In this document: piece by piece, positions 47,533-62,840 of the stretch
Numbering within the stretch: position 1 is the first letter of the stretch
Layout: each line of letters begins with the position of its first letter
Origin: Xenophilus azovorans DSM 13620
GTDB taxonomy: Bacteria; Pseudomonadota; Gammaproteobacteria; Burkholderiales; Burkholderiaceae_C
NCBI RefSeq assembly: GCF_000745855.1
Contig: NZ_JQKD01000032.1
Coordinates: 1-64,000, forward strand
DNA: 64,000 nt
Reading direction: 5' to 3'
The notes under the pieces: model-generated
Databases searched by the model: none
What the model was told of the DNA's origin: nothing
The model's input: only the letters and a program-made list of their open reading frames with translations
Position numbers and translations under genes: made by a program

Positions 47533-48264
47533 ATGTCTTCCGCCCCGCTTCCCGCTCCCGTCGAATTCGCGCCCGGCCTCGTGCTGCGCGGCGTCCAGCC
47601 GCCGCTGGCGCTGTCGGACTTCCGCCTGATCGCCTTCGACATGGATTCGACGCTGATCACCATCGAGTGCATCGACGAGATCGCCGACGCGGTGGGCAAG
47701 AAGGCGGAGGTCGCCGCCATCACCGAGGCCACGATGCGCGGCGAGATCAAGGACTTCAAGGAAAGCCTGCGGCGGCGCGTGGCCCTGCTGCGCGGCGTGC
47801 CGGCCGGCGCCCTGCAGGAGGTGTACGACCAGCGGCTGCGCCTCACGCCCGGCGCGCCCGAGCTGGTGGCCGCCTGCCGGGCGGCGGGGCTGAAGGTGCT
47901 GCTGGTCTCCGGCGGCTTCACCTTCTTCGCCGACCGCGTGCGCGAACGGCTGGGCATCGACTTCGTCCGCTCCAACCTGCTGGAGCAGGACGGCGGCATG
48001 CTCACCGGCCGCGTGGTGCCGCAGAGCTGGGGCGACATCTGCGACGGCGCCGAGAAGCGCCGCACGCTGCTGGAAGTGGCCTCGCTGCTGCGCATCGACC
48101 CGGCGCAGGCGATCGCGGTGGGCGACGGCGCGAACGACCTGCCGATGATGGGCGAGGCGGGCCTGTCGGTGGCCTACCGCGCCAAGCCCCGGGTGCGCGA
48201 GCAGGCGATGGTCGCCATCGACGAGGGCGGGCTGGACCGCCTGCTGGCGCTGTTCGAGGGCTGA
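47533..48264 (+). CDS. serB: Phosphoserine phosphatase
   Basis: SerB removes phosphate from phosphoserine in serine synthesis. The 243-residue HAD-family product has the catalytic Asp in LIAFDMDSTLITIECIDEIA, the Ser in VLLVSGGFTFFADR, the Lys in the AEKRRTLLE region and the Mg2+ acids in AIAVGDGANDLPMMGEAG. A short N-terminus (about 30 residues) replaces the ACT-like part of longer SerB proteins. ATG at 47533. Confidence 0.95.
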   Translation: MSSAPLPAPVEFAPGLVLRGVQPPLALSDFRLIAFDMDSTLITIECIDEIADAVGKKAEVAAITEATMRGEIKDFKESLRRRVALLRGVPAGALQEVYDQRLRLTPGAPELVAACRAAGLKVLLVSGGFTFFADRVRERLGIDFVRSNLLEQDGGMLTGRVVPQSWGDICDGAEKRRTLLEVASLLRIDPAQAIAVGDGANDLPMMGEAGLSVAYRAKPRVREQAMVAIDEGGLDRLLALFEG

Positions 48265-48286
48265 GCGCCCTCGCCGCCGGCCTGCT

Positions 48287-49480
48287 TCAGCGCGGGTCGC
48301 GGAACCAGTTGCCGGCCTCGACGCGGATCAGCACCTTGTCGGGGTCGAAATTCACGCCGGCCGGGTTCCTGCCCTCCTGCACCGCCTTGATCTGCTGGCG
48401 CAGCGCGCGGCGCAGCATGCCCACGCCCTTGTCGCTGGTGGCCAGGTGCTCCTCGTTGTGGAAGGTGATCGGCCCCTGGCCCACCTGCGCCTCCCAGTCG
48501 CCGGGGTAGCGCTGCCGCTCCTCCTCGGTCATCTTCGACCACGGGCGCAGGTTGGGGCTGCGCGGCAGCGCGTTCTGGTCCTCGGGGATCTTCATCGCGA
48601 AGCACAGGCGGAAGTGGGTGTCGTCCACCGGCACCACGAAGCCGATGCCGCCGGCGGCGCCGTGGCGCAACTGCACGTTGGGCACCATGCGCACGTAGGG
48701 GAAGCTCGCCGCCGTGATGCGGTCCATTTCTCGCCCGTCGTCGAGCTTGCGGTAGGCGGTGTAGCGGATGCCGTCGTCGGTGTACTCCCATTCCACCTCG
48801 GGCATCACGCCCATCTCCAGCACGAACTGCACGCCGCTGAAGGTGGTGTGCAGCACCGGGATGTGGAAGGGGTCCATCACGTTCTCCCACTCCTGCAGCC
48901 AGTTGCAGGGCACGATCTCCACGTCGTCGTCGCCGCCGGCGTAGAGGCTGGAGTGCGAGACGTGCAGCTTCATGCCGGGCTCGATGGTCTCGAGGATGTC
49001 CCAGCGCGGCAGCAGCGGCATGCGATCGGGCGGGCCCATGTAGGCCCAGAGGATGCCGTAGCGCTCCTGCACCGGGTACCAGGGCTGGCGGATGCGCTCG
49101 CGGTTCGCGCCGCCGCCCTTCTCGCAGGGCTGGTCCAGGCAGCGGCCTTCGACGCTGAACAGCCAGCCGTGGTAGCAGCAGCGGATGCCCTCGGGCTCCA
49201 CGCGGCCGTAGAACAGGTCGGTGCCGCGGTGCGCGCAGCGGTTGTGCAGCAGGCCGGCGCGGCCGCTGCGGTCGCGGAAGACGATCAGGTCCTCGCCCAG
49301 GATGCGGATGCGCGCCGGCGTGGTGGTCACGCGCTCCGACAGGGTGACGGGGTGCCAGTAGCGGCGCATGAATTCGCCGCAGGGCGTGCCCGGCCCCACC
49401 TCGGTGAGCAGGGCGTCGTGCTGGCCGGCCGGGCGGCCGTAGGCCACGCCGGTCAGGTCGGGTTTCTCGTAGGCGCTCAA
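48287..49480 (-). CDS. Rieske non-heme iron oxygenase, alpha subunit
   Basis: A 397-residue aromatic-ring-hydroxylating-type oxygenase of the phthalate 4,5-dioxygenase-like group that could hydroxylate or N/O-dealkylate its substrate. The Rieske ligands are CAHRGTDLF and CCYHGWLF (CxH...CxxH, about residues 77-100). The mononuclear iron site has VMDPFHIPVLH (Asp plus two His, about residue 200). The start is TTG at 49480 with an excellent GGAGAAAGAAC upstream; frame-open codons further upstream lack homology. It is divergent from the binding-protein operon and has an operator just downstream of its -10. The reductase at 56524 is its likely electron donor. Confidence 0.92.
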   Translation of the reverse strand: MSAYEKPDLTGVAYGRPAGQHDALLTEVGPGTPCGEFMRRYWHPVTLSERVTTTPARIRILGEDLIVFRDRSGRAGLLHNRCAHRGTDLFYGRVEPEGIRCCYHGWLFSVEGRCLDQPCEKGGGANRERIRQPWYPVQERYGILWAYMGPPDRMPLLPRWDILETIEPGMKLHVSHSSLYAGGDDDVEIVPCNWLQEWENVMDPFHIPVLHTTFSGVQFVLEMGVMPEVEWEYTDDGIRYTAYRKLDDGREMDRITAASFPYVRMVPNVQLRHGAAGGIGFVVPVDDTHFRLCFAMKIPEDQNALPRSPNLRPWSKMTEEERQRYPGDWEAQVGQGPITFHNEEHLATSDKGVGMLRRALRQQIKAVQEGRNPAGVNFDPDKVLIRVEAGNWFRDPR

Positions 49481-49529
49481 GTTCTTTCTCCAGGTGCCCG
49501 CCGATCGGCGTCGTGGGTCCGCATCTGAA

Positions 49530-49547
49530 TTTGTCCAAACGGTCAAA
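49530..49547. promoter_or_regulatory. RutR-like operator A (Rieske promoter)
   Basis: TTTGTCC-AAAC-GGTCAAA, an 18-bp imperfect inverted repeat (one mismatch to site B), right after the minus-strand -10 TATGAT (49552-49557, with a TTGCGC at 49576-49581 as -35). It is placed to block transcription of the Rieske gene. It has the architecture of the E. coli RutR box (TTGACC-N4-GGTCAA). Confidence 0.8.
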
Positions 49548-49551
49548 TAAG

Positions 49552-49557
49552 ATCATA
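49552..49557 (-). promoter_or_regulatory. -10 element of the Rieske oxygenase promoter
   Basis: TATGAT on the minus strand, with TTGCGC at an 18-bp spacing as a possible -35. The transcription start would fall inside operator A. Confidence 0.55.
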
Positions 49558-49613
49558 CGAACACGCCATGCCACAGCGCAATGCCCTGGGCAAGCCCGGA
49601 TCTCGGGGAAAGC

Positions 49614-49619
49614 GATAAT
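49614..49619 (+). promoter_or_regulatory. -10 element of the binding-protein operon promoter
   Basis: GATAAT on the plus strand, whose last base begins operator B. No good -35 is present. The ribosome site AAGGA is 9 nt before the ATG at 49714. Confidence 0.5.
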
Positions 49620-49636
49620 TTGACCGAATGGTCAAA
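49619..49636. promoter_or_regulatory. RutR-like operator B (binding-protein promoter)
   Basis: TTTGACC-GAAT-GGTCAAA is a perfect 7-4-7 inverted repeat, directly after the GATAAT -10. It is the best copy of the three sites in the window. The TetR/RutR-like regulator at 57495 is the obvious candidate to bind it. Confidence 0.85.
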
Positions 49637-49713
49637 CCTCCCCAGAATCGCGACCCGCCTCCCCACAACTCTTCTGGGCGTTCGTCCATGACGCCCGACA
49701 AGGAATGCCCACG

Positions 49714-50727
49714 ATGAATCTGCCGCGCCTCTCCCGCTGCGTCCGGTCGTTCGCCACCTGCGCGCTGATCCTCGGCAGCGCGACCGCGGTGCTGGCACAG
49801 GACAAGGTGACCTTCGCCACCAACTGGCGCGCGCAGGCCACCCACGGCGGCTTCTTCCAGGCCGTGGCCGACGGCACCTACAGGAAGTACGGCCTGGAGG
49901 TGGAGATCCAGCAGGGCGGCCCGCAGGTGAACAACCGCGCCATGCTGCCGGCCGGGCGCATCGACTTCCTGATGACCGGCGGCCTGCTGACGGCGCTGGA
50001 GAACACGCGCAACAAGGTGCCCACGGTGATCGTGGCGGCCTACTTCCAGAAGGACCCCACCGCGCTGATCGCCCACAAGGGCGAGTACAAGAACTTCGCC
50101 GAGTTGAAGAACGCCAAGAGCGTCTTCATCGCCAAGAGCAACCAGTTCGGCTTCTGGCAGTGGCTCAAGGCCGAGCACGGCTTCAGCGACGAGCAGTTCA
50201 AGCCCTACACCTTCAACATCGGCCCCTTCATGGTCGACAAGAAGTCCGTGCAGCAGGCCTTCGCCACCTCCGAGGTGCTCTATGCGCGCGACCAGGGCGC
50301 CGAGGTGGACGTGTTCCTCCTGGCCGACCAGGGCTACAACACCTACGGCAACCTGATCGAGACGCGTACCGAGCTGGTGAAGAACAAGCCCGACCTGGTG
50401 CAGCGCTTCGTGGACGCCTCGACCATCGGCTGGAACAACTTCCTCTACGGCGACCCGAAGCCCGGCCTCGATCTCATCAAGAAGTTCAACCCCGACGTCA
50501 ACGACGCCAAGCTGGCCGCCGAGCGCGAGCAGATGATCCGGCTGGACCTCGTCGACTCGGGCGACGCCAAGACCAAGGGCATCGGCGCGATCGACATGCC
50601 CCGCGTGCGCGACTTCGCGGCCCGCATGGTCAAGGCCGGCATCTACAAGCCCGGCGAGGTCGACGCCGACCTGGCGGTGACCGACCGCTTCGTCAACAAG
50701 GGCGTGGGCGTCAAGGCCGCCAAGTGA
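49714..50727 (+). CDS. ABC transporter substrate-binding protein 1 (NMT1/THI5-like)
   Basis: A 337-residue periplasmic binding protein with a signal peptide (cleavage about VLA-QDKV). The mature part starts VTFATNWRAQATHGGFFQAV and has YGLEVEIQQGGPQVNNRAML, as in the NMT1/THI5-like family that binds pyrimidine precursors, nitrate or sulfonates. It is a close paralogue of the protein at 55483: the two share NWRAQ, IQQGGPQVNN, VAAYFQKDP and TKGIGAID/AKGIGAID. ATG at 49714 suits the ribosome site; ATG 49705 is too close to it. The stop overlaps the esterase start as TGATG. Confidence 0.92.
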   Translation: MNLPRLSRCVRSFATCALILGSATAVLAQDKVTFATNWRAQATHGGFFQAVADGTYRKYGLEVEIQQGGPQVNNRAMLPAGRIDFLMTGGLLTALENTRNKVPTVIVAAYFQKDPTALIAHKGEYKNFAELKNAKSVFIAKSNQFGFWQWLKAEHGFSDEQFKPYTFNIGPFMVDKKSVQQAFATSEVLYARDQGAEVDVFLLADQGYNTYGNLIETRTELVKNKPDLVQRFVDASTIGWNNFLYGDPKPGLDLIKKFNPDVNDAKLAAEREQMIRLDLVDSGDAKTKGIGAIDMPRVRDFAARMVKAGIYKPGEVDADLAVTDRFVNKGVGVKAAK

Positions 50728-52316
50728 TGCGCGGCGCCGCGGCCGTGCTCGCCCTTGCCTGGGGGCTCCTGCCGATCGGCGCTGCGGCCGCTTCGCCGGC
50801 ACCCCAGGCGCCCATCGTCCGCACGGCGCTGGGCCCGGTGCAGGGCAACTGGATGGAAGAAGGCCGCGTGGCGGCCTACCTGGGCATTCCTTTCGCCCAG
50901 CCGCCCGTCGCAGACCTGCGCTTCGAGAAGGCGCGACCGGCCAGCCCCTGGGGGCCGCAGCCCCTGCAGGCCACGCGCTTCAAGCCCGCCTGCATGCAGC
51001 AGGGCCAGGTGCCGGCGGACGTCGGCATGTCCGAGGACTGCCTGTACCTGAACGTCTATGCGCCGCAGGCCGCATCCGATGCGGGCCCCCGGCCGGTGAT
51101 GGTCTTCCTGCACGGCGGGCGCTACTGGACGGGCCGCGCCTCCGAGAACAAGGTCGAGAAGCTGGCGGCGCGCAGCGGCGCCGTCGTCGTGACCGTGGCC
51201 TACCGCCTCAACGCCTTCGGCTTCCTGGCGGACCCGGCCCGCGCCCGCGCCGGCGACGCCAACCTCGGCCTGCAGGACCAGCAGCTCGCGCTGCGCTGGC
51301 TGGCGCGCCATGTGCACGCGTTCGGCGGCGACCCGCGGCGCGTGATGCTCTTCGGCGAAAGCGCCGGCGCCGGCAGCGTGTTGGCGCAGTTGCTGGACCC
51401 TGCCGCCGCGGGCCTGTTCCAGCGCGCGATGCTGCAATCCACCTGGCAGTGGCGGCTGCCCACGCTGGCGCAGGCCACGGCCGGCACCCACGCGCTGGCG
51501 CGGCGCCTGGGCTGCACGACGGACGACGCCGCCGCGATGGTCGCGTGCCTGAAACGCGTACCGGCGGAGAAGCTGCTCCCGCCCCTGGCCGACAGCCATG
51601 CCTTCCAGCCCACCGTCGATGGCGTACGGCTGAAGGCGCAGCCGCTGGCCCTGCTGGAGCAAGGCCGCTTCCAGCGGCAGGTGCCCGTCCTCGTCGGCCT
51701 GAATGCCGAGGAAGGGAACTTCATGGCCATGTCCCGCACGGGCTGGAAGCGGCCCGACCAGCCGGTGCACGACGCCGCCTACCTGAAGGCCGCACGCGAT
51801 GCGCTCTCGCCCTTCTACCCGGCCGGCCAGGTGGAGGACATCCTCTCGTGGTACGCCCCGCAGCGCGCCACGCAGGGCAACTGGCACGCGCTGAGCCGGC
51901 TGCTGGGCGACTTCTACCTGAACTGCGGCAGCTACACGGCCGCCGCCGCACTGGCCCGGCACGGCCGGCGCCCGGCCTACGCCTACTGGTTCGCGCACGT
52001 GAGCCGGAACCATCCCAAGGCCTACCTGGGCGCGACGCACGGCGACGAACTGGACCTGCTCTTCGCCGCGCCGGTCTATCCGCCCGGCTATCCGCTGGAC
52101 CCGGACGACCGCGCGCTCTCGCATCGCATGATGCAGGCCTGGGGCGCCTTCGCCCGCAGCGGCGTCCCCGTCCAGGGCGAAGGCCACGGCCCATGGCCGC
52201 CGCTCACCGCCTCGTCCCGCATCGCGCCCGTCTGGTCCGAGCCCGCCGCGGCGGCGCCGCACCGCTTCGAGGACGCATCGGGGCAGTGCGCGAGATGGCA
52301 CGCCCTCCTGCGCTGA
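50727..52316 (+). CDS. Exported type-B carboxylesterase
   Basis: A 529-residue carboxylesterase of the cholinesterase/para-nitrobenzyl-esterase group. A signal peptide (about 1-25, ending AAAASPAP) sends it to the periplasm. The nucleophile is in LFGESAGAGSVLAQLL, the acid in GLNAEEGNFMAM and the His in YLGATHGDELDLLF, so the triad is complete. The oxyanion loop is VMVFLHGGRYWTGRA. It is translationally coupled to the binding protein before it and lies inside the transporter operon, which suggests it unmasks an ester or carbamate in the periplasm before uptake. Substrate unknown. Confidence 0.9.
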   Translation: MRGAAAVLALAWGLLPIGAAAASPAPQAPIVRTALGPVQGNWMEEGRVAAYLGIPFAQPPVADLRFEKARPASPWGPQPLQATRFKPACMQQGQVPADVGMSEDCLYLNVYAPQAASDAGPRPVMVFLHGGRYWTGRASENKVEKLAARSGAVVVTVAYRLNAFGFLADPARARAGDANLGLQDQQLALRWLARHVHAFGGDPRRVMLFGESAGAGSVLAQLLDPAAAGLFQRAMLQSTWQWRLPTLAQATAGTHALARRLGCTTDDAAAMVACLKRVPAEKLLPPLADSHAFQPTVDGVRLKAQPLALLEQGRFQRQVPVLVGLNAEEGNFMAMSRTGWKRPDQPVHDAAYLKAARDALSPFYPAGQVEDILSWYAPQRATQGNWHALSRLLGDFYLNCGSYTAAAALARHGRRPAYAYWFAHVSRNHPKAYLGATHGDELDLLFAAPVYPPGYPLDPDDRALSHRMMQAWGAFARSGVPVQGEGHGPWPPLTASSRIAPVWSEPAAAAPHRFEDASGQCARWHALLR

Positions 52317-52357
52317 GATTCCCGCCCCCCCGAACCCACACGGCCCAGCCCATCCCC

Positions 52358-53170
52358 ATGCCAAGCCTCCAGCCGCCCTCCGCCGCCGCCTCGCCGCCGC
52401 CGCTGTTCAGCATGCGCGACGTCGGCAAGCGCTTCCCGAACGGCACCCTCGCCCTGCAGGGCATGTCGCTGGAATGCGGCGACCACGAGTTCATCAGCTT
52501 CCTCGGCCCCTCGGGCTGCGGCAAGAGCACCGCGCTGCGCCTGATCGCGGGCCTCACGCGCATCAGCGAAGGCGCCCTGGAATGGCCCGAGCGCCCGGCG
52601 CCGGCGGACGGCCAGCGCGAACTGGGCTTCGTGTTCCAGGAGCCCACGCTCATGCCCTGGGCCAAGGTCTTCGACAACGTCTGGCTGCCGCTCAAGCTGG
52701 CCGGCGTGAAGCGCGACGCGGCGGCGCCCGTGATCCGGCAGGTGCTGGAGATGGTGGGCCTGTCGCGCTTCGCCGACGTGTACCCGCGCGAGCTGTCGGG
52801 CGGCATGAAGATGCGCGTGTCCATCGCCCGCGCGCTGGTCACGCAGCCGCGCCTGCTGCTGATGGACGAGCCCTTCGCCGCGCTCGACGAGATGACGCGC
52901 ATCAAGCTCAACAACGACCTGCTGGCCATCTGGCGCGAGCACCGCTTCTCGGTCGTCTTCGTCACGCACAGCGTCTACGAGTCGGTGTACCTGTCCAGCC
53001 GCATCGTCGTGATGGCCGCCCGGCCGGGCCGCGTGGTCGAGACCTTCGGCATCGAGGAGCCCTACCCGCGCGGCGAGGAGTTCCGCACCTCCAGCCGCTA
53101 CAACCAGCATTGCATGGCGGTGCAGCGCTCGCTGCACGGCGCGCTGGGCGGCCAGGACATCGACCACTGA
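52358..53170 (+). CDS. ABC transporter ATP-binding protein
   Basis: A 270-residue ATPase of the nitrate/sulfonate/thiamine-precursor importer group. Walker A is GPSGCGKST, Q-loop is VFQEPTLM, signature is LSGGMKMRVSIARAL, Walker B is LLLMDEPFAALDE and the H-loop is FVTHSVYESVYL. ATG at 52358 adds a short Pro/Ser-rich N-terminus. It works with the permease at 53186 and one or both binding proteins. Confidence 0.94.
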   Translation: MPSLQPPSAAASPPPLFSMRDVGKRFPNGTLALQGMSLECGDHEFISFLGPSGCGKSTALRLIAGLTRISEGALEWPERPAPADGQRELGFVFQEPTLMPWAKVFDNVWLPLKLAGVKRDAAAPVIRQVLEMVGLSRFADVYPRELSGGMKMRVSIARALVTQPRLLLMDEPFAALDEMTRIKLNNDLLAIWREHRFSVVFVTHSVYESVYLSSRIVVMAARPGRVVETFGIEEPYPRGEEFRTSSRYNQHCMAVQRSLHGALGGQDIDH

Positions 53171-53185
53171 GAGAGCGAGGCGAAC

Positions 53186-54013
53186 GTGAGCAAGCCCCAC
53201 CTGGACGCACACCAGCGCAAGGCGCAGCGCCGCGAGGCCGTCATGCGCGTCGCGGTCCCGGCCGTCATCATCCTTGCCATCCTCGTCGGCTGGGAAATGA
53301 TGGTGCGCGTCAACGAGATCCCGCACTACATCATTCCCGCGCCGTCGCTGATCTGGCGCACGCTGCTCGACAACTGGGCCACGCTGTGGCCGGCCCTGTG
53401 GTTCACCGTCAAGCTGACCCTGTTGGCCCTGCTGGCGGCCGTGGTCGGCGGCGTGCTGCTGGCCATCGCCTTCGCCCTGTTCCGCTGGGTGGAGATCGGC
53501 TTCTTCCCCATCGCCGTGGTGCTGCAGGTCACGCCGATCATCGCCATCGCGCCGCTGATCCTGATCTACGTGTCCAACACCACGGCGGCGCTGCTGCTGT
53601 GCGCCTGGATCGTCGCCTTCTTCCCCATCCTGTCGAACACGGTGATCGGGCTCAAGAGCGCCGACAGCAACCTGCGCGACCTGTTCCAGCTCTACAAGGC
53701 CACGCCCTGGCAGCGCTTCCGCTACCTGCTGGTGCCCAGCGCCCTGCCCTACTTCATGGCGGGCCTGAAGATCGCCGGCGGCCTGGCGCTGATCGGCGCG
53801 GTGGTGGCCGAGTTCACTGCCGGCACGGCGGGCCGCGAGACGGGCCTGGCCTCGCGCATCCTGGAGTCGAGCTTCCGCACCGAGATCCCGATGATGTTCG
53901 CCGCGCTGTTCCTGGTCTCCGCGCTGGGCGTGGTGATCTTCCTGGTCTTCGCCGTCCTCTCGAAGATGGTGCTGGGGCACTGGCACGAGAGCGAGATGCG
54001 CCGGGAGCAATAG
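53186..54013 (+). CDS. ABC transporter permease
   Basis: A 275-residue BPD-type inner-membrane permease with about six helices. The EAA loop that contacts the ATPase is YKATPWQRFRYLLVPSALPY. The start is GTG with GAGGCGAAC upstream. Family and length match SsuC/TauC/ThiX-like permeases. Confidence 0.93.
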   Translation: MSKPHLDAHQRKAQRREAVMRVAVPAVIILAILVGWEMMVRVNEIPHYIIPAPSLIWRTLLDNWATLWPALWFTVKLTLLALLAAVVGGVLLAIAFALFRWVEIGFFPIAVVLQVTPIIAIAPLILIYVSNTTAALLLCAWIVAFFPILSNTVIGLKSADSNLRDLFQLYKATPWQRFRYLLVPSALPYFMAGLKIAGGLALIGAVVAEFTAGTAGRETGLASRILESSFRTEIPMMFAALFLVSALGVVIFLVFAVLSKMVLGHWHESEMRREQ

Positions 54014-54018
54014 CAAAG

Positions 54019-55446
54019 ATGACCGACATGCCGATCTCCATTCCCGCCGCGCCGCCCACCGGCCACGCGGGCTTCGCCTACGACCTGTCCCGCGTGGACT
54101 GGCAACAGGTGCAGGCCGACTTGCAGGGCCTGGACGTGATCACGCGGCTGCCGCAGCGGCGGCAGCTGTCCAAGGACTTCTTCTGGTACAGCCCCGTGCT
54201 GGTCGACCTGCTCGCCGACTGCGTGGCCGACGTCGTGGTGCGCGTGGGCACCGAGGAGGACGTGCGCCAGGTGGCGCAGGTGGCCGCGCGGCATCGGGTG
54301 CCGCTGACGGTGCGCGCCGGCGGCACCGGCAACTACGGCCAGTGCGTGCCGCTCAACGGCGGCATCGTGATGGACGTGAGCGGCCTGGCGCGCGTGCTCG
54401 ACATCCAGCCCGGCCGCGTCCGCGCCCAGGCCGGCGCGCGCATGTACGACATCGAGATGGCCGCGCGCGAGACCGGCCAGGGCCTGCGCATGTGGCCCTC
54501 GACCTGGCACGTGGCCTCCATCGGCGGCTTCATCTCGGGCGGCTTCGGCGGCATCGGCTCGATGCGCAACGGCATCCTGCGCGATCCCGGCAACATGCTG
54601 CGCGCGCGCGTGATGACGGTCGAGCAGGAGCCGCGCATCATCGAGCTGGCGGGCGACGATATCCAGAAGGTGCAGCATGCCTTCGGCACCAACGGCGTGA
54701 TCCTCGACGTGGAGGTGGCGCTGGACCCGCACGTGGAATGGCTGCACACGACGGTGCTGTTCCCGACCTACCGCGGCGCGCTGGACTTCGCCTGCGCCGC
54801 CAGCACGCCCGCGCTGGACCTGTTCCTGCTCTCCACCGTGGAAGCGCGCTTCTCGCCCTACTACACCAGCATGGGCGACAGGTTCCCGGCCGACCGGCAT
54901 GCGGTCTTCACCATGGTCTCGCCCGACTCCATCGGCGAGGTGCGCGCGCTGGCGCGGCGCATGGGCGGCGAGATCTCGGTCTGCGGCACCGAGCAGGAGC
55001 TGCTGGACGCCGGCCTGCCGCCGGCCTACGAGTGCGCCTACAACCACACCACGCTGCAGGCGCTGAAGGTGGACCGCAGCTGGACCTACCTGCAGGTGGC
55101 CTACGCCCAGCCCTTCGACCCGGCCGTGGTGCAGCGGCATCTCGACGTCTTCGGCGACGACGTGCTGCAGCACCAGGACTTCGCGCGCGCCGGCGGCGAG
55201 TTCGGGACCTTTGGCATCATCCTGGTCCGCTGGAAGGGCATCGAGCACCAGTACGAAGTGATCCGCGAAATCGAATCGCAGGGCGGCTGCCAGATCTTCA
55301 ATCCTCACGTGGTCACCATCGAGGAAGGCGGCATGAAGGCGATCGACGACCAGCAGATCGATTTCAAGAGACACGGCGACCCGATGGGCCTGATGAATCC
55401 CGGCAAGACGCGCGGCTGGCGGCCGGAGATGGCCCGCCCGGCCTGA
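54019..55446 (+). CDS. FAD-linked oxidoreductase (VAO/PCMH type)
   Basis: A 475-residue flavoenzyme with an N-terminal FAD_binding_4 domain (about 60-240). The FAD loop is LTVRAGGTGNYGQCVPLNGG, and the family block is IGGFISGGFGGIGSMRNG. The His that binds FAD covalently in some members (RSGGH) is Thr-Gly here, so FAD is probably not covalent at that site. The C-terminal cap (about 250-470) should set substrate choice and is not one I recognise. It follows the permease by 5 nt. A role in oxidising a C-N or C-OH bond of the imported compound is inference. Confidence 0.87.
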   Translation: MTDMPISIPAAPPTGHAGFAYDLSRVDWQQVQADLQGLDVITRLPQRRQLSKDFFWYSPVLVDLLADCVADVVVRVGTEEDVRQVAQVAARHRVPLTVRAGGTGNYGQCVPLNGGIVMDVSGLARVLDIQPGRVRAQAGARMYDIEMAARETGQGLRMWPSTWHVASIGGFISGGFGGIGSMRNGILRDPGNMLRARVMTVEQEPRIIELAGDDIQKVQHAFGTNGVILDVEVALDPHVEWLHTTVLFPTYRGALDFACAASTPALDLFLLSTVEARFSPYYTSMGDRFPADRHAVFTMVSPDSIGEVRALARRMGGEISVCGTEQELLDAGLPPAYECAYNHTTLQALKVDRSWTYLQVAYAQPFDPAVVQRHLDVFGDDVLQHQDFARAGGEFGTFGIILVRWKGIEHQYEVIREIESQGGCQIFNPHVVTIEEGGMKAIDDQQIDFKRHGDPMGLMNPGKTRGWRPEMARPA

Positions 55447-55482
55447 ACCCAACACCTCATTCGTCAACCGGAGTAGCACAGC

Positions 55483-56496
55483 ATGCGCAAGAAGCTCTTT
55501 CTCGGCCTCGGCCTTGGGATGTCCCTGCTCGCCCACCTCGCCGCGGCGCAGGACAAAGTGACCCTCGCCACCAACTGGCGGGCCCAGCCCGGGCACGGCG
55601 GCTTCTACCAGGCGCTGGCCGACGGCACCTACAGGAAGTTCGGCCTGGACGTGACCATCCAGCAGGGCGGGCCGCAGGTGAACAACCGGCCCATGCTGCC
55701 GGCGGGCCGCGTGGACTTCCTCATGTCCGGCAACATGCTGCTGCCCTTCGACAACCTCAAGGCCGGCGTGCCCACCGTGGTGGTGGCGGCCTACTTCCAG
55801 AAGGATCCGCAGATCCTCATCGCGCACCCGGGCCAGGGCTACGAGAAGTTCACCGACCTGACCCGCGCACCCACCATCCTCATGGCCAAGGACGGCCAGA
55901 TCAGCTACTTCCAGTGGATGAAGAAGGCCTACGGCTTCCGCGACGAGCAGGTGCGACCGTACAACTTCAGCCTGTCGCAGTTCCTGGCCGACAAGAAGGC
56001 GGTGCAGCAGGGCTACGCCACCTCCGAGCCCATCTCGGTGGAGGCGCAGGCCGGCTTCAAGCCGCTGGCCTTCTCGCTGGCCGACGCGGGCTGGTCCACC
56101 TACGGCATGGTCATCGAGACGCGCAGGGATCTGGTCGGGAAGGAGCCCGACCTGGTCAGGCGCTTCGTCGAGGCCAGCAACATCGGCTGGTACAACTACC
56201 TCTACGGCGACCGCACGGCAGCCGACAAGCTGATCCGCGAATCCAACCCCGACATCACGCCCGAGTACACGGCCAAGTCCATCCCGATCCTGCGCGAGCA
56301 CATCGACAGCGGCGACGCGCTCGCCAAGGGCATCGGCGCGATCGACCCGCAGCGCATCAAGGACTTCCACGCCAAGACCGTGGAGGCCGGCCTGTTCACC
56401 GCGGGCCAGATCGACCCCGAGGCCTCCTACACCACCCAGTTCGTGAACAAGGGCACCGGCCTGGACGTGCGCAGGCAGCTGACCGGCGGCAAGTGA
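55483..56496 (+). CDS. ABC transporter substrate-binding protein 2 (NMT1/THI5-like)
   Basis: A 337-residue periplasmic binding protein with its own signal peptide (MRKKLFLGLGLGMSLLAHLA, cleavage AAA-QDKV), clearly paralogous to the product at 49714. Differences cluster in the middle (MAKDGQISYFQWMKKAYGF against IAKSNQFGFWQWLKAEHGF) and in the TSEPISVEAQAG segment, which may alter ligand choice. It is separated from the transporter genes by the FAD oxidase. Only one permease/ATPase pair is present, so both proteins probably feed the same pump. Confidence 0.92.
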   Translation: MRKKLFLGLGLGMSLLAHLAAAQDKVTLATNWRAQPGHGGFYQALADGTYRKFGLDVTIQQGGPQVNNRPMLPAGRVDFLMSGNMLLPFDNLKAGVPTVVVAAYFQKDPQILIAHPGQGYEKFTDLTRAPTILMAKDGQISYFQWMKKAYGFRDEQVRPYNFSLSQFLADKKAVQQGYATSEPISVEAQAGFKPLAFSLADAGWSTYGMVIETRRDLVGKEPDLVRRFVEASNIGWYNYLYGDRTAADKLIRESNPDITPEYTAKSIPILREHIDSGDALAKGIGAIDPQRIKDFHAKTVEAGLFTAGQIDPEASYTTQFVNKGTGLDVRRQLTGGK

Positions 56497-56523
56497 TGAA
56501 GAAGAACGAGAAGTGAGCCAAGC

Positions 56524-57489
56524 ATGAGCCAGACGCGCATCCTCACCCTGCGGGTGGCGCGCATCACGCGCCAGACGCCCGAGATCCTCGGCTTCGAGCT
56601 GGCGCATCCGTGGGGCCGGGAACTCCCCGCCTACGAGGCCGGCGCCCACATCGACGTGCACATGCCCGGCGGCTTCTCGCGCCAGTACTCGCTGGCGCAG
56701 GCGCCGCACGTGGCGGACAACCGCTACCTGATCGGCGTCAAGCGCGAGCCGGCGGGCCGCGGCGGCTCGGCCTCTATGCACGAGCGCGTGCGCGAAGGCG
56801 ACCTGCTGCCGGTCGGCGAGCCGCGCAACACCTTCACCCTGGCGCCCGGCGCGGCGCACCACATGCTGCTGGCCGGCGGCATCGGCATGACGCCGCTGCT
56901 GGCGATGGCGCAGACGCTCGCGGCGCGCGGCGAGCGCTTCACGCTGTGCGTGTTCGCGCGCAGCCCCGAGCACCTGGCCTTCGCCGACGCGCTGGGCGCC
57001 TCCTCGCTGGCGCCGCACGTGCGGCTGCACTTCGACGAGGGCGGCACGCCGGCGCAGAAGATCCGCCTGGCCGAGCTGCTGGCCGCGCCCGCCGCCGGCT
57101 CGCACCTGTACATGTGCGGCCCGGCGGGCTTCATGCAGGCGGTGCGCGGCGCGGCCGGCGAATGGCCCGAGGACAACATCCACGCCGAGTACTTCGCGGC
57201 GCCCGACGGCATGGTCGCCTCGACCGGCCGGCCCTTCACGCTGCGGCTGCTCCAGCGCGGCATCAGCGTGCCGGTGGCGGCCGAGCAGACCGCCGTGGAG
57301 GCGCTGCACGACGTGGGCATCGACATCCCGGTGTCGTGCCAGCAGGGCCTGTGCGGCACCTGCGTGGTGCCGGCCGAGGGCGACGGCGCCGAGCACCGCG
57401 ACTTCTGCCTCAGCGGCACCGAGCGCCGCCACAAGGTCGCGCTGTGCTGCTCGCGCGCCAGGGGCGACCAGTTGAGCCTGCACATCTGA
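56524..57489 (+). CDS. Flavin/[2Fe-2S] oxygenase reductase (phthalate dioxygenase reductase-like)
   Basis: A 321-residue electron-transfer protein that should pass NADH electrons to the Rieske oxygenase. The flavin domain has SRQYSLAQAP (FMN binding), the NAD domain has MLLAGGIGMTPLLAMA and LYMCGPAGFM, and the C-terminal plant-type ferredoxin has CQQGLCGTCVV plus a later Cys in RDFCLS. This order (flavin, NAD, [2Fe-2S]) is that of class IA reductases. It follows binding protein 2 by 27 nt. Confidence 0.93.
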   Translation: MSQTRILTLRVARITRQTPEILGFELAHPWGRELPAYEAGAHIDVHMPGGFSRQYSLAQAPHVADNRYLIGVKREPAGRGGSASMHERVREGDLLPVGEPRNTFTLAPGAAHHMLLAGGIGMTPLLAMAQTLAARGERFTLCVFARSPEHLAFADALGASSLAPHVRLHFDEGGTPAQKIRLAELLAAPAAGSHLYMCGPAGFMQAVRGAAGEWPEDNIHAEYFAAPDGMVASTGRPFTLRLLQRGISVPVAAEQTAVEALHDVGIDIPVSCQQGLCGTCVVPAEGDGAEHRDFCLSGTERRHKVALCCSRARGDQLSLHI

Positions 57490-57494
57490 CGACA

Positions 57495-58214
57495 ATGCCG
57501 CGGATGGCCAACGCGAAGCCGCACCGTCACTCGCCCGAGGAACTGCACGCGCCTGCGCCGGGCAGCGAGGCGCTGCAGCAGCGCGGCCGCTCGCGCAAGT
57601 ACGCGCAGGTGATGGCGCAGATCCACGCCGCCGCCATCGAGGTCTTCGCCAGCGAGGGCCCGGCGGGCGCGACGACGCAGGCCATCGCCGACCGCGCCGG
57701 CCTCTCGAAGGCGCAGCTGCACTACTACATCGAGACCAAGGACGCGCTCTACCGCGAGGTGATCCAGGACATCCTGGACGACTGGGTGGCGGTCTTCGGC
57801 TACGGCGACGAGGCGCTGGGCCCACGCAAGGTGCTGGGCGACTACATCCGCCGCAAGATGGTGTTCTCCTTCGAGGAGCCGCTGCGCTCGCGCATCTTCA
57901 CGGCCGAGATGATGCGCGGCGGCCCGGTGGCGCTGCCGCTCATGGGCGGCAGCGGCCGCCGCACGTGGCAGGCCGACTCCGTGATCCGCAACTGGATCCA
58001 GGCCGGCCTGATGGCGCCGGTGGACCCGCTGCTCTTTCTCTTCCACATCTGGGCGATCACGCAGTTCTACGCGGACCAGGCCGCCCAGGTGCACCTGTTC
58101 CTGCCGGGCGAGCTGGACAGCGCCGAGGGGCGCCAGCGCCTCATCGACGAGGCGACGCTGCACATCTTCCGCGCGGCGGGCATCGAGGCCGCACCGCCCG
58201 GCGCGCCGGCCTGA
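57495..58214 (+). CDS. RutR-like TetR family regulator
   Basis: A 239-residue TetR regulator. The helix-turn-helix is at about residues 40-85 (IEVFASEGPAGATTQAIADR, AGLSKAQLHYYIETKDALYR). The C-terminal ligand domain is of the RutR/YcdC type, with IRNWIQAGLMAPVDPLLFLF and HIWAITQFYADQAAQV, as in E. coli RutR, which senses pyrimidines. A 30-residue basic N-terminal extension precedes the DNA-binding domain. ATG at 57495 is used, 57504 is possible. Three RutR-like operators lie in this cluster. It probably represses the cluster until the substrate or an early product binds. Confidence 0.9.
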   Translation: MPRMANAKPHRHSPEELHAPAPGSEALQQRGRSRKYAQVMAQIHAAAIEVFASEGPAGATTQAIADRAGLSKAQLHYYIETKDALYREVIQDILDDWVAVFGYGDEALGPRKVLGDYIRRKMVFSFEEPLRSRIFTAEMMRGGPVALPLMGGSGRRTWQADSVIRNWIQAGLMAPVDPLLFLFHIWAITQFYADQAAQVHLFLPGELDSAEGRQRLIDEATLHIFRAAGIEAAPPGAPA

Positions 58215-58217
58215 GCC

Positions 58218-58676
58218 TCAGCGCCGCGGCAGGTACATCGTCGCCTCGACCTCGACCAGCACCTCGTCGCCGGGCAGGAAGCGCGACACCTCGACCACCG
58301 TGCTGACCGGCGGCTCGCCCGGATAGAACAGGCCGCGCACGCGGTTGTAGGGCGCGTAGTCGCGCAGGTGGCGGAAGTACTGCACCAGCTTCACCACGTC
58401 GTCCATGGTCCCGCCATGCTCCGCCGCGAGCTGGCGGATGCGCTCCAGAACGAACCAGCTCTGCGCCACGATGGCCGCCTCGAACACGTCCACCGACATC
58501 TGGCCCGTGACGTAGCCCAGGCCCTGCAGGGCCGTGCGCGCGTGCTCGGGCAGTTCGTCGTAGTGCGCGACGGCGCGGCGCGTGGCCGGATTGGTGGCGA
58601 CCACGCCGCTCATGAAGACGAAGTCGCCCACGCGCTTCGCGGCGGCGTACCTGGCCATGGGGGTTCCGGTGTTCAT
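58218..58676 (-). CDS. RidA/YjgF-family protein, catalytic Arg apparently replaced
   Basis: A 152-residue member of the Rid family. Archetypal RidA hydrolyses reactive enamines/imines. The fold is supported by FVFMSGVVATNPATRR, SWFVLERIRQLAAEHGGTMD, DVVKLVQYFRHLRDYAPYNR and the end VVEVSRFLPGDEVLVEVEAT. In RidA the residues PARSCVEVARLP include the active Arg; here the same place reads PVSTVVEVSRFLP, so the Arg seems to be Ser. That points to one of the non-archetypal Rid subgroups found in catabolic operons. The ATG overlaps the amidohydrolase stop as ATGA. Confidence 0.85.
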   Translation of the reverse strand: MNTGTPMARYAAAKRVGDFVFMSGVVATNPATRRAVAHYDELPEHARTALQGLGYVTGQMSVDVFEAAIVAQSWFVLERIRQLAAEHGGTMDDVVKLVQYFRHLRDYAPYNRVRGLFYPGEPPVSTVVEVSRFLPGDEVLVEVEATMYLPRR

Positions 58677-59863
58677 GCGGGCATCTCCAGAAGGCGTCCG
58701 GCGCGGATCACCCGCCGGGCGCGGCCGTGCGGGCCGATGAGTTCGTATTCGCTGCGCGCGGCCAAGCACAGCAGGTCGGCGGGGCAGCCTTCGTGCAGGC
58801 GGCCGTCCCAGGCCAGGCCCAGGGCACGCGCGGGGTTGGCGGTGATGGTGTCGATCCAGTCCAGCGCGGGCGCCAGGTGTGCGGCCTGCACGCCCAGGCC
58901 GAAGGCGTCGAGCAGGTCGTAGCCGCCGTAGGGATAGAAGGCATCCTGCACGTTGTCGGTGGCCAGGCTCGTGCCGACGCCGGCCGCGCGCGCCTCGCGC
59001 AGCCGGGTGATGCCGCGCGGCACGGGCGTGCGCTCCCAGGCGCCCTGGAGGTAGAGGTTGGTGCTGGGCAGCGCCACCAGGTGCAGGCCGGCGCGGGCGC
59101 ACAGCGCCAGCGTGGCTTCGGCCTCGTCGTCGGGCTGGACCGACAGCGAGCAGGCATGGCCGCAGACCACGCGGCCCTGCATGCCGTGCTCCAGCGTCAT
59201 CTGCGCGATCAGGGCGAGGCCCTGCGCGTCCCGGTCCAGACCCTCGTCGACGTGGAAGTCGAGCGCCAGCCCGTGCTGCGCCGCCAGCGCGAACACGCGC
59301 CGCAGCCTGGCTGCCAGGTCGGCGTTGCGGTAGACGAAGGCGCCGAGCACGCCCCCGGCGCGCCGCACCTCGCGCGCGATCCGCGCACCGGCCGCCTCGT
59401 CGGCGTACACGTCCAGCGGCGTGAGCGCGACGAACTGCAGCTCGATCCGCCCGCGCCAGGCCTCGCGCAGCGCCTCCAGCACGGCCAGCGAGGCCGGCGG
59501 CGCGGCGCCGCCCCAGTCCAGGTGGGTGCGCAGCGCGCGGGTGCCGAAGGCCCACGCCTCCTGCAGCGCGCGCTCCATGCGCGGCCGCAGGGTGGCGCCG
59601 CTCCAGCTTGCGCGATGCGCCTCCATGCGCCGGATGGCGCTGAACAGGTCGCCCTGCGCGCCGCCGGTTTCCTCCACGGTGTAGTTCTTGTCGATGTGCG
59701 CGTGCGCCTCGACGGGTGCGCTCAGGAGCAGGCCGCGCGCGGGCTGCGCGCTGGGCCGGATCGCGGCGACGCGGCCACCTTGCAGCGCCACGTCGAAGAC
59801 CTCGACACCGCCCGCGTCGAAGGCGCGCAGCGCGCGGGGGATGTGCAGGGCGGTCAGTTCCAC
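58673..59863 (-). CDS. Cytosine-deaminase-like amidohydrolase
   Basis: A 396-residue metal-dependent hydrolase of the amidohydrolase superfamily. Metal ligands are PVEAHAHIDKNYTVEE (HxH, near residue 55), LDFHVDEGLD, VVCGHACSLSV and SLATDNVQDAFYPYG (Asp). The last block is very like the CodA segment around the catalytic Asp. It should deaminate or dechlorinate/dealkylaminate a pyrimidine- or triazine-type ring, but substrate cannot be read. The start is taken as GTG 59863, 10 nt after the creatininase stop; no strong ribosome site is visible and start confidence is low. Confidence 0.88.
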   Translation of the reverse strand: MELTALHIPRALRAFDAGGVEVFDVALQGGRVAAIRPSAQPARGLLLSAPVEAHAHIDKNYTVEETGGAQGDLFSAIRRMEAHRASWSGATLRPRMERALQEAWAFGTRALRTHLDWGGAAPPASLAVLEALREAWRGRIELQFVALTPLDVYADEAAGARIAREVRRAGGVLGAFVYRNADLAARLRRVFALAAQHGLALDFHVDEGLDRDAQGLALIAQMTLEHGMQGRVVCGHACSLSVQPDDEAEATLALCARAGLHLVALPSTNLYLQGAWERTPVPRGITRLREARAAGVGTSLATDNVQDAFYPYGGYDLLDAFGLGVQAAHLAPALDWIDTITANPARALGLAWDGRLHEGCPADLLCLAARSEYELIGPHGRARRVIRAGRLLEMPA

Positions 59864-59873
59864 GCGCAGGGGC

Positions 59874-60686
59874 TCAGCGCCACGCGGGCTCGTTGGCCAG
59901 CCGCGCGAGCGGAAAGCGGTCGACTTCCTGCAGCAGTTGCACGAAGCGCCGCCCCACGTGGTCGAGCACCGCCGCGCCCTTCTGCGCCGTGGCGCGCGAG
60001 GCATCGCCGGCCGCCCCCCAGGGGTTGATGTCGTGCATCTGCCAGCCAAGCTTGCCGCTGGGCGTGATCGAGAGGAAGCTGTTCTCCGCCGCGAGGTCCT
60101 GTGTCATCGAGTGGAAGTTTCGCAACTGGCCGTGCTGCACGTCGTCGGGGGCGACGTGCATCATGATCGAGGATTCGAGATCGCCCGCGTGGATGCCGTG
60201 GCGGCCCTCCTCCTCGGTGAACATGCCCTGCGGCAGGCCCAGCGTGTACCAGTTGGCCGCCACCACCATCATGCCGTGCGCCTCGCGCAGGTCGCGCGCG
60301 ACGATGTCCATCGGCGCCATCTGGCCGCCGTGGCTGTTGTAGAGCACCAGCTTGCGCACGCCGGCGCGGGCCACGCAGGCGCCGATCTCCATCCACAGCG
60401 CGATCAGCGTGCTGGCCGAGACCGTCAGCGTGCCCGGATAGCGCGAATGCTCGTTGCTCTTGCCGTAGGGCACGGTGGGCAGGAAGAGCACGGGCAGCTC
60501 GCCGGGGAGATAAGGCAGGCAGGCCCGCACCATCGCGTCGATGGTCACGGTGTCGGTGGACATGGGCAGGTGCGGCCCGTGCTGCTCGGTGGCCCCCACG
60601 GGCAGCACGGCGATGAGGCGCTCCCGGTCGAGCCGCGAAAACTCCTCGCTCGTCAGGTCGGACCAGTAGCGTGTGCGCAGTTTCAT
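59874..60686 (-). CDS. Creatininase family amidohydrolase
   Basis: A 270-residue creatininase-family enzyme. The metal site shows VLPVGATEQHGPHLPMSTDT (Glu, His, Asp ligands), PTVPYGKSNEHSRYPGTLTV, LYNSHGGQMAPM and the late acid in GIHAGDLESSIMMH. All ligands of this fold appear intact. The family opens amide rings (creatinine) or cleaves similar amides in cofactor pathways. Here the neighbours (cytosine-deaminase-like enzyme, RidA-like protein) suggest cleavage of a deaminated ring. ATG at 60686; operator C lies 34-51 nt upstream. Confidence 0.9.
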   Translation of the reverse strand: MKLRTRYWSDLTSEEFSRLDRERLIAVLPVGATEQHGPHLPMSTDTVTIDAMVRACLPYLPGELPVLFLPTVPYGKSNEHSRYPGTLTVSASTLIALWMEIGACVARAGVRKLVLYNSHGGQMAPMDIVARDLREAHGMMVVAANWYTLGLPQGMFTEEEGRHGIHAGDLESSIMMHVAPDDVQHGQLRNFHSMTQDLAAENSFLSITPSGKLGWQMHDINPWGAAGDASRATAQKGAAVLDHVGRRFVQLLQEVDRFPLARLANEPAWR

Positions 60687-60719
60687 GGGATCGGGCGTGT
60701 GGGGTGGAGAAGATCGAAA

Positions 60720-60737
60720 TTTATCCAATCGGTCAAG
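60720..60737. promoter_or_regulatory. RutR-like operator C (creatininase upstream region)
   Basis: TTTATCC-AATC-GGTCAAG, matching site B at most arm positions (TTTGACC/GGTCAAA). It lies 34 nt before the creatininase start and 103 nt before the divergent nitroreductase. Its left half reads GATAAA on the minus strand, a possible -10. It places the minus-strand RidA-amidohydrolase-creatininase block in the same regulon. Confidence 0.7.
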
Positions 60738-60840
60738 AAAGGGGGAGCGGGACAACCCACACCCGAGTGGGGCCGGTGGGCTTTGGCGGCGCCTGCACGG
60801 GCACGGCCCCGCCCGGCGGGCGCCGCTACAGTGGCAGGCC

Positions 60841-61524
60841 ATGACCGCCGCCGCATCCACCGTCCGCGAGGCCGTGCAAAGCCGCCTGTCGGTACGCGCC
60901 TTCCTGCCCGACCCGGTTCCGCCCGACATCATCCGCCAGGTGCTGGAGGACGCCGCCCGCGCGCCCAGCGGCGGCAACCTCCAGCCCTGGCACGTCGACG
61001 TGCTGGCCGGCGGCACGCTGGCGCGCTTCAAGGCGCTCATGCAGGCACGCCTGGCCCCCAATGCCGAGCCCGAGACGCCGGCCTACGACGTGTACCCGCC
61101 GCAGTTGCCCTCGCCCTGGCGCGAGCGGCGCTTCCGCGTCGGCGAGGACATGTACGCGCTCCTGGGCATCCCGCGCGAGGACAAGCCCGCCCGCCGGCGC
61201 TGGTTCGCCAACAACTTCGCCTTCTTCGGCGCGCCGCTGGCGCTCATGTGCTCGGTCGACCGGCGCATGGGGCCGCCGCAGTGGTCCGACCTGGGCATGT
61301 TCCTGCAGACCGTGATGCTGCTGCTGCGCGAACGCGGCCTGGACAGCTGCGCGCAGGAATGCTGGGCCTTCCACCCGCAGACGGTCGGCCGCTTCCTCGG
61401 CTGGCCCGACGAGCGCATGATCTTCTGCGGCATGGCCATCGGCCGGCGCGACCCGGAGCACCCCGTCAACCGGCTGCGCAGCGAGCGCGCCCCGCTGGAC
61501 GAGTGGCTGCGCTTTCACGACTGA
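60841..61524 (+). CDS. Nitroreductase family protein
   Basis: A 227-residue FMN-dependent nitroreductase-fold protein. The FMN-binding start is QSRLSVRAFLPDPVP and DAARAPSGGNLQPWHV, and the C-terminal flavin contact is ERMIFCGMAIGRRDPEHPVN. It reduces nitro groups, quinones or similar with NAD(P)H. It is divergent from the creatininase gene, and operator C could serve both. Some Rut-like pathways use a nitroreductase-fold enzyme (RutE), so membership of the catabolic regulon is possible. Confidence 0.88.
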   Translation: MTAAASTVREAVQSRLSVRAFLPDPVPPDIIRQVLEDAARAPSGGNLQPWHVDVLAGGTLARFKALMQARLAPNAEPETPAYDVYPPQLPSPWRERRFRVGEDMYALLGIPREDKPARRRWFANNFAFFGAPLALMCSVDRRMGPPQWSDLGMFLQTVMLLLRERGLDSCAQECWAFHPQTVGRFLGWPDERMIFCGMAIGRRDPEHPVNRLRSERAPLDEWLRFHD

Positions 61525-61543
61525 GACCCGAGGAGACCGAGAC

Positions 61544-61933
61544 ATGAGCCTGCGCATCGTGCGCCTGGGCAGCCCGCGCGCCGAAGGCGAAGGGCTGCGC
61601 ATCGGCACCGTGCGGCGCCCGCCGCGCGGGGTGCCCAAGAGCGAGTTCGCCAGCGGCGACTGGTACGACGTGTGGTTTCCCGAGCTGGCGCCCTCCGCCG
61701 AGACGGTGAAGCAGGCGCAGGCCGCGCAGACGCCCGCCGAGTGGAAGGCCTTCCAGCGCCGCTACCGCAGCGAGATGAACGAAGCGCACGCCAGCCACAG
61801 CCTGGACCTGCTGGCGGCCCTGTCGCACCGCAGCGCGCTGTCGGTGGGCTGCTACTGCGAGAACGAGGCGCACTGCCACCGCTCCGTCCTGCGCGAGCTG
61901 CTGGCCGAGCGCGGCGCCGACATCGTGGATTGA
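61544..61933 (+). CDS. DUF488 family protein
   Basis: A 129-residue DUF488 protein. It begins LRIVRLGSPRAEGEGLRIGT and has DWYDVWFPELAPSAE and the Cys/His cluster VGCYCENEAHCHRSVLRELL, which is the conserved end of the family. The function is unknown. It follows the nitroreductase by 19 nt with a GAGG ribosome site and is probably cotranscribed with it. Confidence 0.85.
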   Translation: MSLRIVRLGSPRAEGEGLRIGTVRRPPRGVPKSEFASGDWYDVWFPELAPSAETVKQAQAAQTPAEWKAFQRRYRSEMNEAHASHSLDLLAALSHRSALSVGCYCENEAHCHRSVLRELLAERGADIVD

Positions 61934-61937
61934 GAAA

Positions 61938-62840
61938 GTGCTGCCGGTGACATCGACCCCCTCCCCCTCCCCCTCCCTCGCCCCGCTGGCCGGCGTGCGC
62001 GTGCTCAGCCTCGCGCTCAACCTCCCGGGCCCCGCCGCCCTGCTGCGCTGCCGCGCCATGGGCGCGCACTGCCTCAAGCTGGAGCCGCCCTCGGGCGACC
62101 CGATGCGCCTGTACCAGCCCCGCGCCTACGCCGACCTGCACCAGGGCATCGAGGTGCGCGAGGCCGACCTCAAGACCGCGCCCGCGCAGGCCGCCCTGCG
62201 CGAGGAACTGGCCCGCACCGACGTGCTGCTCACCTCCTTCCGCCCCTCCGCGCTGCGCAAGCTGGGCCTGAACTGGGAGGTCCTGCACGAACGCCACCCG
62301 CGGCTGGCGCAGGTCGCCATCGTCGGCGCGGCCGGCGCGCGCGCCGAGGAGCCCGGCCACGACCTCACCTACCTGGCCGATGCCGGGCTGGTGGCGGGCA
62401 CCACGCTGCCGCCCACGCTGTTCGCCGACATGGCCGGCGCCCTGATGGCCGCCGAGGCGGTGCTGCAGGCCGTGCTGCACCTGCGCACCCACGGCGCCGG
62501 CACGTGCGTCGAGGTGGCCCTGCACGGCGCGGCCGAGTGGCTGGCGCTGCCGCGCACCTGGGGCCTGACCACGCCCGACGGCGCCGTGGGCGGCGCGCAT
62601 GCCGGCTACCGCGTCTACCCCTGCGCCGACGGCCGCGTGGCGGTGGCCGCGCTGGAGCCGCACTTCGCCCGGCGCCTGGCCGAGGCGGCCGGCCTGGACA
62701 CGGCCGACCTGGGCGCGCCCGCCGCGCACCGCGGCGTGGCCGCGTGGATCGCCGGCCGCACGCGGGCCGAGCTCGACGCGCTCGCGGCGGAGCGCGACAT
62801 CCCGCTGCACACGCTCCCGCCCGAGCCAGCGCCGCAATGA
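61938..62840 (+). CDS. CaiB/BaiF (family III) CoA transferase
   Basis: A 300-residue, short version of a family III CoA transferase. The N-terminal Rossmann part is LAGVRVLSLALNLPGPAALL and the expected catalytic Asp is in EEPGHDLTYLADAGLVAG. Family members swap CoA between carboxylic acids. Full CaiB-type proteins run to about 400 residues, but 300-residue forms with this C-terminus are common. The start could be GTG 61938 or GTG 61947. An Asn-Leu-Pro-Gly-Pro follows the first strand as in racemase-type members. Substrate unknown. Confidence 0.85.
   Translation: MLPVTSTPSPSPSLAPLAGVRVLSLALNLPGPAALLRCRAMGAHCLKLEPPSGDPMRLYQPRAYADLHQGIEVREADLKTAPAQAALREELARTDVLLTSFRPSALRKLGLNWEVLHERHPRLAQVAIVGAAGARAEEPGHDLTYLADAGLVAGTTLPPTLFADMAGALMAAEAVLQAVLHLRTHGAGTCVEVALHGAAEWLALPRTWGLTTPDGAVGGAHAGYRVYPCADGRVAVAALEPHFARRLAEAAGLDTADLGAPAAHRGVAAWIAGRTRAELDALAAERDIPLHTLPPEPAPQ

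Follow-up and report, generated by a model that had tools for sequence, protein, structure and literature searches.

A conserved, partly described gene cluster for predicted pteridine catabolism in Xenophilus azovorans, in a variant with an additional Rieske oxygenase, binding protein and esterase

Among the closest described counterparts of the gene cluster considered here is the pterin deaminase of Variovorax sp. F1, an enzyme of 399 residues whose gene has an endoribonuclease gene downstream (PMC9513972). In its accessible part, that study covers deamination and carboxypeptidase G, and describes no importer, flavin enzyme, creatininase-family hydrolase, reductase or regulator (PMC9513972). 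A second counterpart is the flavin oxygenase 'involved in folate catabolism' represented in the PDB by entry 6v42, with which entry 6v43 shares its sequence. Our subject is positions 48287-61524 of a 64,000-nucleotide stretch (the window), which belongs to one contig (NZ_JQKD01000032.1) of the 6.5 Mb genome of Xenophilus azovorans DSM 13620. The cluster in this region is real and conserved, and some of it has been described before; the present variant carries a Rieske oxygenase, a binding protein and an esterase in addition. That it serves the uptake and catabolism of pteridines (pterin or folate), in the manner of Variovorax, is a likely prediction, as regards both substrate and activities. 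Arad3529 of Agrobacterium radiobacter, as cited in the Variovorax study, is counted with the pterin deaminase among these counterparts.

Gene calling by codon-position GC and family searches gave 13 genes, lettered A to M, and all the protein families that an earlier sequence-only reading had named were recovered in their places. Among the 13 are F (54019-55446, plus strand; FAD_binding_4), an FAD-dependent enzyme and putative flavin oxygenase of pteridine catabolism, and K (58673-59863, minus strand; Amidohydro_1), a predicted pterin deaminase-type amidohydrolase whose nearest solved relatives are cytosine deaminases (PDB 4r7w, E 1.3e-38). With them stand L (59874-60686, minus; Pfam Creatininase, 4.2e-72), a creatininase-family hydrolase and proposed lactam opener, J (58218-58676, minus; Pfam Ribonuc_L-PSP, 2.4e-16), a RidA-type imine/enamine deaminase, and an ABC importer made up of the ATPase D (52358-53170, plus; Pfam ABC_tran), the permease E (53186-54013, plus; Pfam BPD_transp_1) and the NMT1/THI5-type substrate-binding protein G (55483-56496, plus; NMT1, PF09084). 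The model of the binding protein comes nearest to aminopyrimidine binders, which favours the pteridine reading, and a phage search with G as query returned no match. Genes B to I are spaced by -1 to 41 nucleotides (nt) and L, K and J by -4 and 10 nt, K and J overlapping by 4 nt.

Conservation was examined at two scales. In a family sample of 200 genomes, own genome included, with 8 or 9 candidates scored per genome and homologs of F accepted at E <= 1e-40, F was found in 28 genomes, K in 26 and both in 24, and F lay within 10 kb of K at 31 of the 33 places where K occurs. In addition, 123 loci were mapped by tblastn with the window genes, comprising 40 family stretches, 80 collection loci (the best 80 of at least 593) and 3 plasmid loci; 34 of them were dropped for short flanks, 5 because their F was near-identical and 2 because they had none, leaving 82. 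These were grouped by identity of F (>= 60%, n=12; 45-59%, n=42; < 45%, n=28) and genes were counted within 9 kb. In this order of groups, K occurs in 8, 35 and 25 loci (68/82 altogether), L in 11, 39 and 19 (69/82), RidA in 10, 28 and 16 (54/82), the NMT1 gene in 9, 35 and 17, the ATPase in 9, 35 and 15 (59/82), the permease in 9, 36 and 16 (61/82) and the RutR-like gene in 9, 22 and 11 (42/82). The counts for the remaining genes are 12, 1 and 3 for the reductase H; 0, 0 and 2 for A-like Rieske genes; none in any group for the esterase; and 0, 1 and 0 for the nitroreductase. The core indicated by these counts is thus K, L, F, J and the NMT1-type importer, joined by a RutR-like gene in about half of the loci. 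The gene set co-occurs beyond chance, and A, B, C and M stand outside its conserved core. The sequence-only reading had proposed one catabolic system for a nitrogen heterocycle, combining import, deamination, oxygenation and ring opening, and in this it is supported; conserved co-occurrence, which it had set as the test, is found for K, F, L, J, the importer and often the RutR-like gene.

Amidohydrolases of the cytosine deaminase-like kind carry the metal-ligand pattern HxH...H...H...D. In K, residues H54, H56, H204, H236 and D303 fit this pattern and are invariant in 20 aligned rows, and K of the window falls in a 9-row clade with Variovorax and related K proteins (support 95/98). RidA follows K in all eight of the Variovorax loci among L109-L120 that reach K (L109, L110, L111, L114 and L117-L120; L112 and L113 end short of K and are excluded from this count). 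The order of K and J matches that published for the pterin deaminase and endoribonuclease genes of Variovorax F1, and K has 396 residues as against 399 (PMC9513972). On the basis of position, length and family, K is taken as a putative ortholog of that deaminase. F is 40% identical to 6v42 and has the same fold over 445 residues, and a plasmid cluster of Agrobacterium with the same core contains an F that scores 696 bits to 6v42. Both F and K point to pteridines, whose ring system includes a pyrimidine half, and the substrate class favoured by the sequence-only reading, a pyrimidine, hydantoin or creatinine, is not supported. Nor is its description of the cluster as undescribed supported for the whole, as a pterin deaminase of Variovorax is published (PMC9513972, accessible part) and the PDB includes a flavin oxygenase of folate catabolism; for the cluster as a unit and for its later reactions, no paper was found among the matches listed in the open-access literature, a weak negative since subscription journals lie mostly outside it.

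Several observations weigh against the pteridine reading. Fourteen of the 82 loci have no K-type gene nearby, and one Variovorax locus (L164, F 47%) shows neither K nor RidA. F has only 40% identity to 6v42, and several F lineages lie at a similar distance from that entry: F of the window and an F of clade II (see below) score 356-360 bits to 6v42. The true substrate may therefore be another pteridine. The assignment of K as an ortholog compares position, length and family rather than the two sequences. Cell-free extracts of Variovorax F1 barely degraded deaminopteroate, according to the accessible part of the study (PMC9513972), so that later steps may need other conditions or other genes. 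Two further findings lead towards purines: of the 14 loci with F < 45% that were scanned, 5 have xanthine riboswitches of family RF03054 close to the core, and a homolog of A (78%, genome G132) lies near a Urate_ox_N gene, making a purine-like substrate possible.

These two findings are grounds for supposing that the same core acts on an oxidised purine, of the xanthine/urate family or modified, instead of a pteridine. The riboswitches (RF03054, NMT1) are at L071 13260-13315, L072 12957-13012, L077 17017-17083 and 17357-17427, L107 2030-2100 and 2378-2441, and L098 2112-2183; L098 and L099, both among the 14 scanned, carry the nearer F type too. Rieske-type genes and a second amidohydrolase adjoin the core in L071, and a RutR-like regulator would be compatible with a xanthine-like dione as well. 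A described parallel is provided by HpxDE of Klebsiella and the purine genes under xanthine riboswitches, which resemble the window in having a Rieske oxygenase with its reductase, and NMT1-type genes near amidohydrolases; as far as the accessible part of that source goes, the core enzymes differ (PMC7373994), and the window cluster has no xanthine riboswitch. No match to RF03054 was obtained in window positions 44000-64000 at E up to 1, nor in six further cluster loci scanned (L089, L109, L117, L142, L221 and L190). The only Rfam match in 44000-64000 lies inside mfd at 27.8 of 97 bits, far below the gathering score, and was taken as chance. In L071 and L072 the aptamer follows RidA and precedes a second NMT1 gene, and therefore probably controls add-on genes and not the core. 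With F and K pointing to folate and pterin besides, we consider a purine substrate unlikely. The second NMT1 gene of L071 is itself followed by the Rieske-type genes and the other amidohydrolase.

For the pteridine reading, a sequence of reactions can be proposed. G (and B), together with D and E, would import a pterin or a folate fragment. K would then strip the 2-amino group to give a lumazine, as was shown for the enzyme of Variovorax F1. F may oxygenate the lumazine ring; C7 is proposed as the position because the resulting lactam could then be opened by a creatininase-family hydrolase, leaving an imine for RidA. L would accordingly hydrolyse the C7-N8 lactam and J the remaining C6=N5 imine, yielding 5,6-diaminouracil, with the side chain leaving on a 2-oxo acid. 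That the core constitutes such a complete and previously undescribed route for the pteridine ring, with K deaminating, a reductase-fed F making the 7-oxo lactam, L opening it and RidA releasing 5,6-diaminouracil, while electron donors are interchangeable and a RutR-like protein senses a lumazine, is put forward tentatively, as possible rather than probable.

The electrons for F or another oxygenase may be supplied by H (56524-57489, plus; Pfam Fer2, NAD_binding_1), a reductase with a C-terminal 2Fe-2S domain and a putative electron donor. Genes for electron donors vary by lineage: some loci have H, a reductase-ferredoxin fusion, others a flavodoxin-like reductase, and others a ferredoxin reductase that may be accompanied by a ferredoxin. 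At least one of these classes is present in 59 of the 82 loci and exactly one in 54, and none of those probed in 23. In the middle group the donor modules tend to exclude one another (one-sided Fisher p 0.006), which is a hint only, as kinship was ignored. The pattern hints at what would be expected if F or another oxygenase used a replaceable reducing partner. In many alphaproteobacterial versions the place of H is taken by a flavodoxin-like NAD(P)H reductase or by a ferredoxin reductase, to which a 2Fe-2S ferredoxin is sometimes added; examples are L126 4861-6063, L189 14060-14383 and L190 11401-11991. Two annotated clusters on rhizobial plasmids keep the core, but their regulator gene is of the LysR kind instead of RutR-like, and H is replaced by an NAD(P)H oxidoreductase with a flavodoxin-like fold.

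The regulator I (57495-58214, plus; TetR_C_3) is a RutR-like TetR protein, with RutR as its match in the PDB (3loc, E 3.5e-30). The shared operators announced by the sequence-only reading were right in kind, being sites of the type TTGACC-N4-GGTCAA, two at the gap between A and B and one before L. This motif resembles the RutR consensus of E. coli, and binding at the sites is predicted. Operator 1 (49531-49546, TTGTCCAAACGGTCAA) has one mismatch to the motif, operator 2 (49620-49635, TTGACCGAATGGTCAA) is perfect and operator 3 (60721-60736, TTATCCAATCGGTCAA) is weaker. Allowing up to 3 mismatches, TTGACCANNTGGTCAA matches the window 8 times against 0.50 expected; the eight are the three operators and five sites elsewhere, one of them inside J. 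The site at 49620 is the sole perfect TTGACCNNNNGGTCAA in the genome. Sites with at most 1 mismatch number 7 genome-wide, two of them in the A/B gap, and a reversed control pattern gives 25, so the total is not raised. The congener G211 has counterparts of operators 1, 2 and 3 at L221 8881-8896 (3 mismatches to TTGACCANNTGGTCAA), L221 8967-8982 (2 mismatches) and L222 606-621 (3 mismatches), and the identical 16 letters of operator 3 also precede the creatininase gene in L089.

Across loci, a site with up to 3 mismatches was found in 21 of 36 distinct upstream regions against 0.77 expected, the largest count in 30 shuffles being 3; the 36 regions, window included, come from loci that have a RutR-like gene and whose creatininase gene shares 44% identity or more with L, and one of the 21 sites (L152, an incomplete locus) lies at a meaningless distance and may not be genuine. 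Near-type loci in which no RutR-like gene was detected have a site in 4 of 22 cases against 0.30 expected, three of these four (L112, L113 and L144) coming from stretches that are cut short. In loci whose creatininase is less than 44% identical to L (clade II), sites occur in 0/15 and 0/14. The operator thus tracks the near type and not clade II. In the proposed scheme, the regulator I would keep both operons repressed through these sites until it binds a lumazine or a uracil-like intermediate.

A regulator and operator of this type invite comparison with the E. coli Rut pathway, which the window also resembles in its RutC-like RidA and in the uracil-like ring of the proposed lumazine. A pathway for a simple pyrimidine, hydantoin or creatinine, related to Rut, would account for the joint presence of RutR-like, RutC-like, cytosine deaminase-like and creatininase-family proteins. 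It is set back by the curated NCBIfam models, none of which is matched above its cut-off by F, I, J, K, L or M. The regulator reaches 138 of 368 bits for RutR (TIGR03613), J 42 of 169 for RutC and K 345 of 403 for cytosine deaminase (NF005759). L belongs to the wider Pfam family Creatininase, yet fails the cut-off for creatinine amidohydrolase (TIGR04448, 90 of 235), and its best model, MftE, is likewise missed (119 of 172). No relative of RutA or RutB was found by Pfam or NCBIfam among the 13 genes, to which this search was confined, the rest of the genome lying outside it. Since the nitroreductase M is moreover unlinked to the cluster in other genomes, we give such a pathway hardly any chance.

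The genes outside the core were followed within the genus, in 15 genomes that include the present one. Every one of the 15 has an F-type gene; 13 have just the kind that is 36-39% identical, and the window's genome and G211 (91-92%) have the near kind as well. In G211 the entire order A to L is preserved at 75-96% identity, with A at 96% and the homolog of C at 75%. A (48287-49546, minus; Pfam Rieske, PF00355, 4.2e-16) is a Rieske oxygenase resembling phthalate 4,5-dioxygenase, with 7fhr, 'Putative Phthalate 4,5-dioxygenase', as its closest PDB entry (E 4.3e-56). Its implied TTG start at 49546 is uncertain, as it sits within an operator, and the actual start is probably further inside the gene. 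B (49705-50727, plus; Pfam NMT1, PF09084, 1.9e-20) is an extra NMT1/THI5-type binding protein, 51-52% identical to G, and C (50727-52316, plus; Pfam COesterase, PF00135, 2.7e-116) is a type-B carboxylesterase with a hydrophobic N-terminus. A was rejected as a core member: of its 20 homolog places in the family sample, the window itself is the only one with F within 20 kb. A is linked also in G211. From this distribution, A, B and C appear as lineage-specific additions, found with the cluster only in the window and G211; in the proposed scheme they would form an add-on, A and B being placed under the same operators.

The retention of A at 96% in G211, its likeness to phthalate dioxygenase and the two operators flanked by A and B raise another possibility, that the cluster is centred on the side chain of folate or on some other aromatic compound, with A and H together as its key enzyme (for example in C9-N10 cleavage or 4-aminobenzoate oxidation) and the pterin genes only finishing the work. 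A related Rieske gene (51% identity) does occur among aromatic catabolic genes on an Aminobacter plasmid. The core is found elsewhere without A, and all 12 loci with F >= 60%, which lie outside the genus, carry H without A, so H was probably part of the older cluster rather than evolving for A, with A, B and C joining afterwards; we therefore regard this possibility as highly unlikely. The homolog of A in G132 lies in L223 (4055-14740) with its own reductase, a Urate_ox_N urate oxidase, a MOFRL-family gene and an amidohydrolase, which is likely to be a purine-degradation locus.

M (60841-61524, plus; nitroreductase family), which the sequence-only reading had counted as a member, was tried as part of the system and rejected. 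Homologs occur in 10 of the 15 genus genomes, own included; the 7 genomes besides this one in which the homolog is 76-85% identical have it on another contig than their F genes, and the 1.5-kb flanks of M homologs hold no other cluster gene except at the window's own. Its position beside the cluster may mark an insertion site. The cluster is flanked by mfd and serB on the left and by DUF488 and CoA-transferase genes on the right, and an empty-site comparison at serB was uninformative, as serB and M are far apart or on different contigs. The genome also contains another, distant version of the core in double copy (contig G000:C43, locus L105 8085-19583), with two F-type oxidases and a RutR-like gene of its own. 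F-type genes of this kind occur in each of the 15 genomes compared.

Only one or two enzymes of pterin-ring breakdown have been studied so far. In its accessible part, the 2022 Variovorax study ends at deaminopteroate and raises the question whether bacteria break this compound down, and by what route (PMC9513972). A core conserved over Beta- and Alphaproteobacteria, together with a regulator and an operator, offers candidate enzymes for the missing steps and brings the pathway within reach of direct tests. It also suggests that the labels 'cytosine deaminase', 'creatininase family protein' and 'FAD-binding oxidoreductase', where they occur in such loci, should be taken to mean pteridine catabolism.

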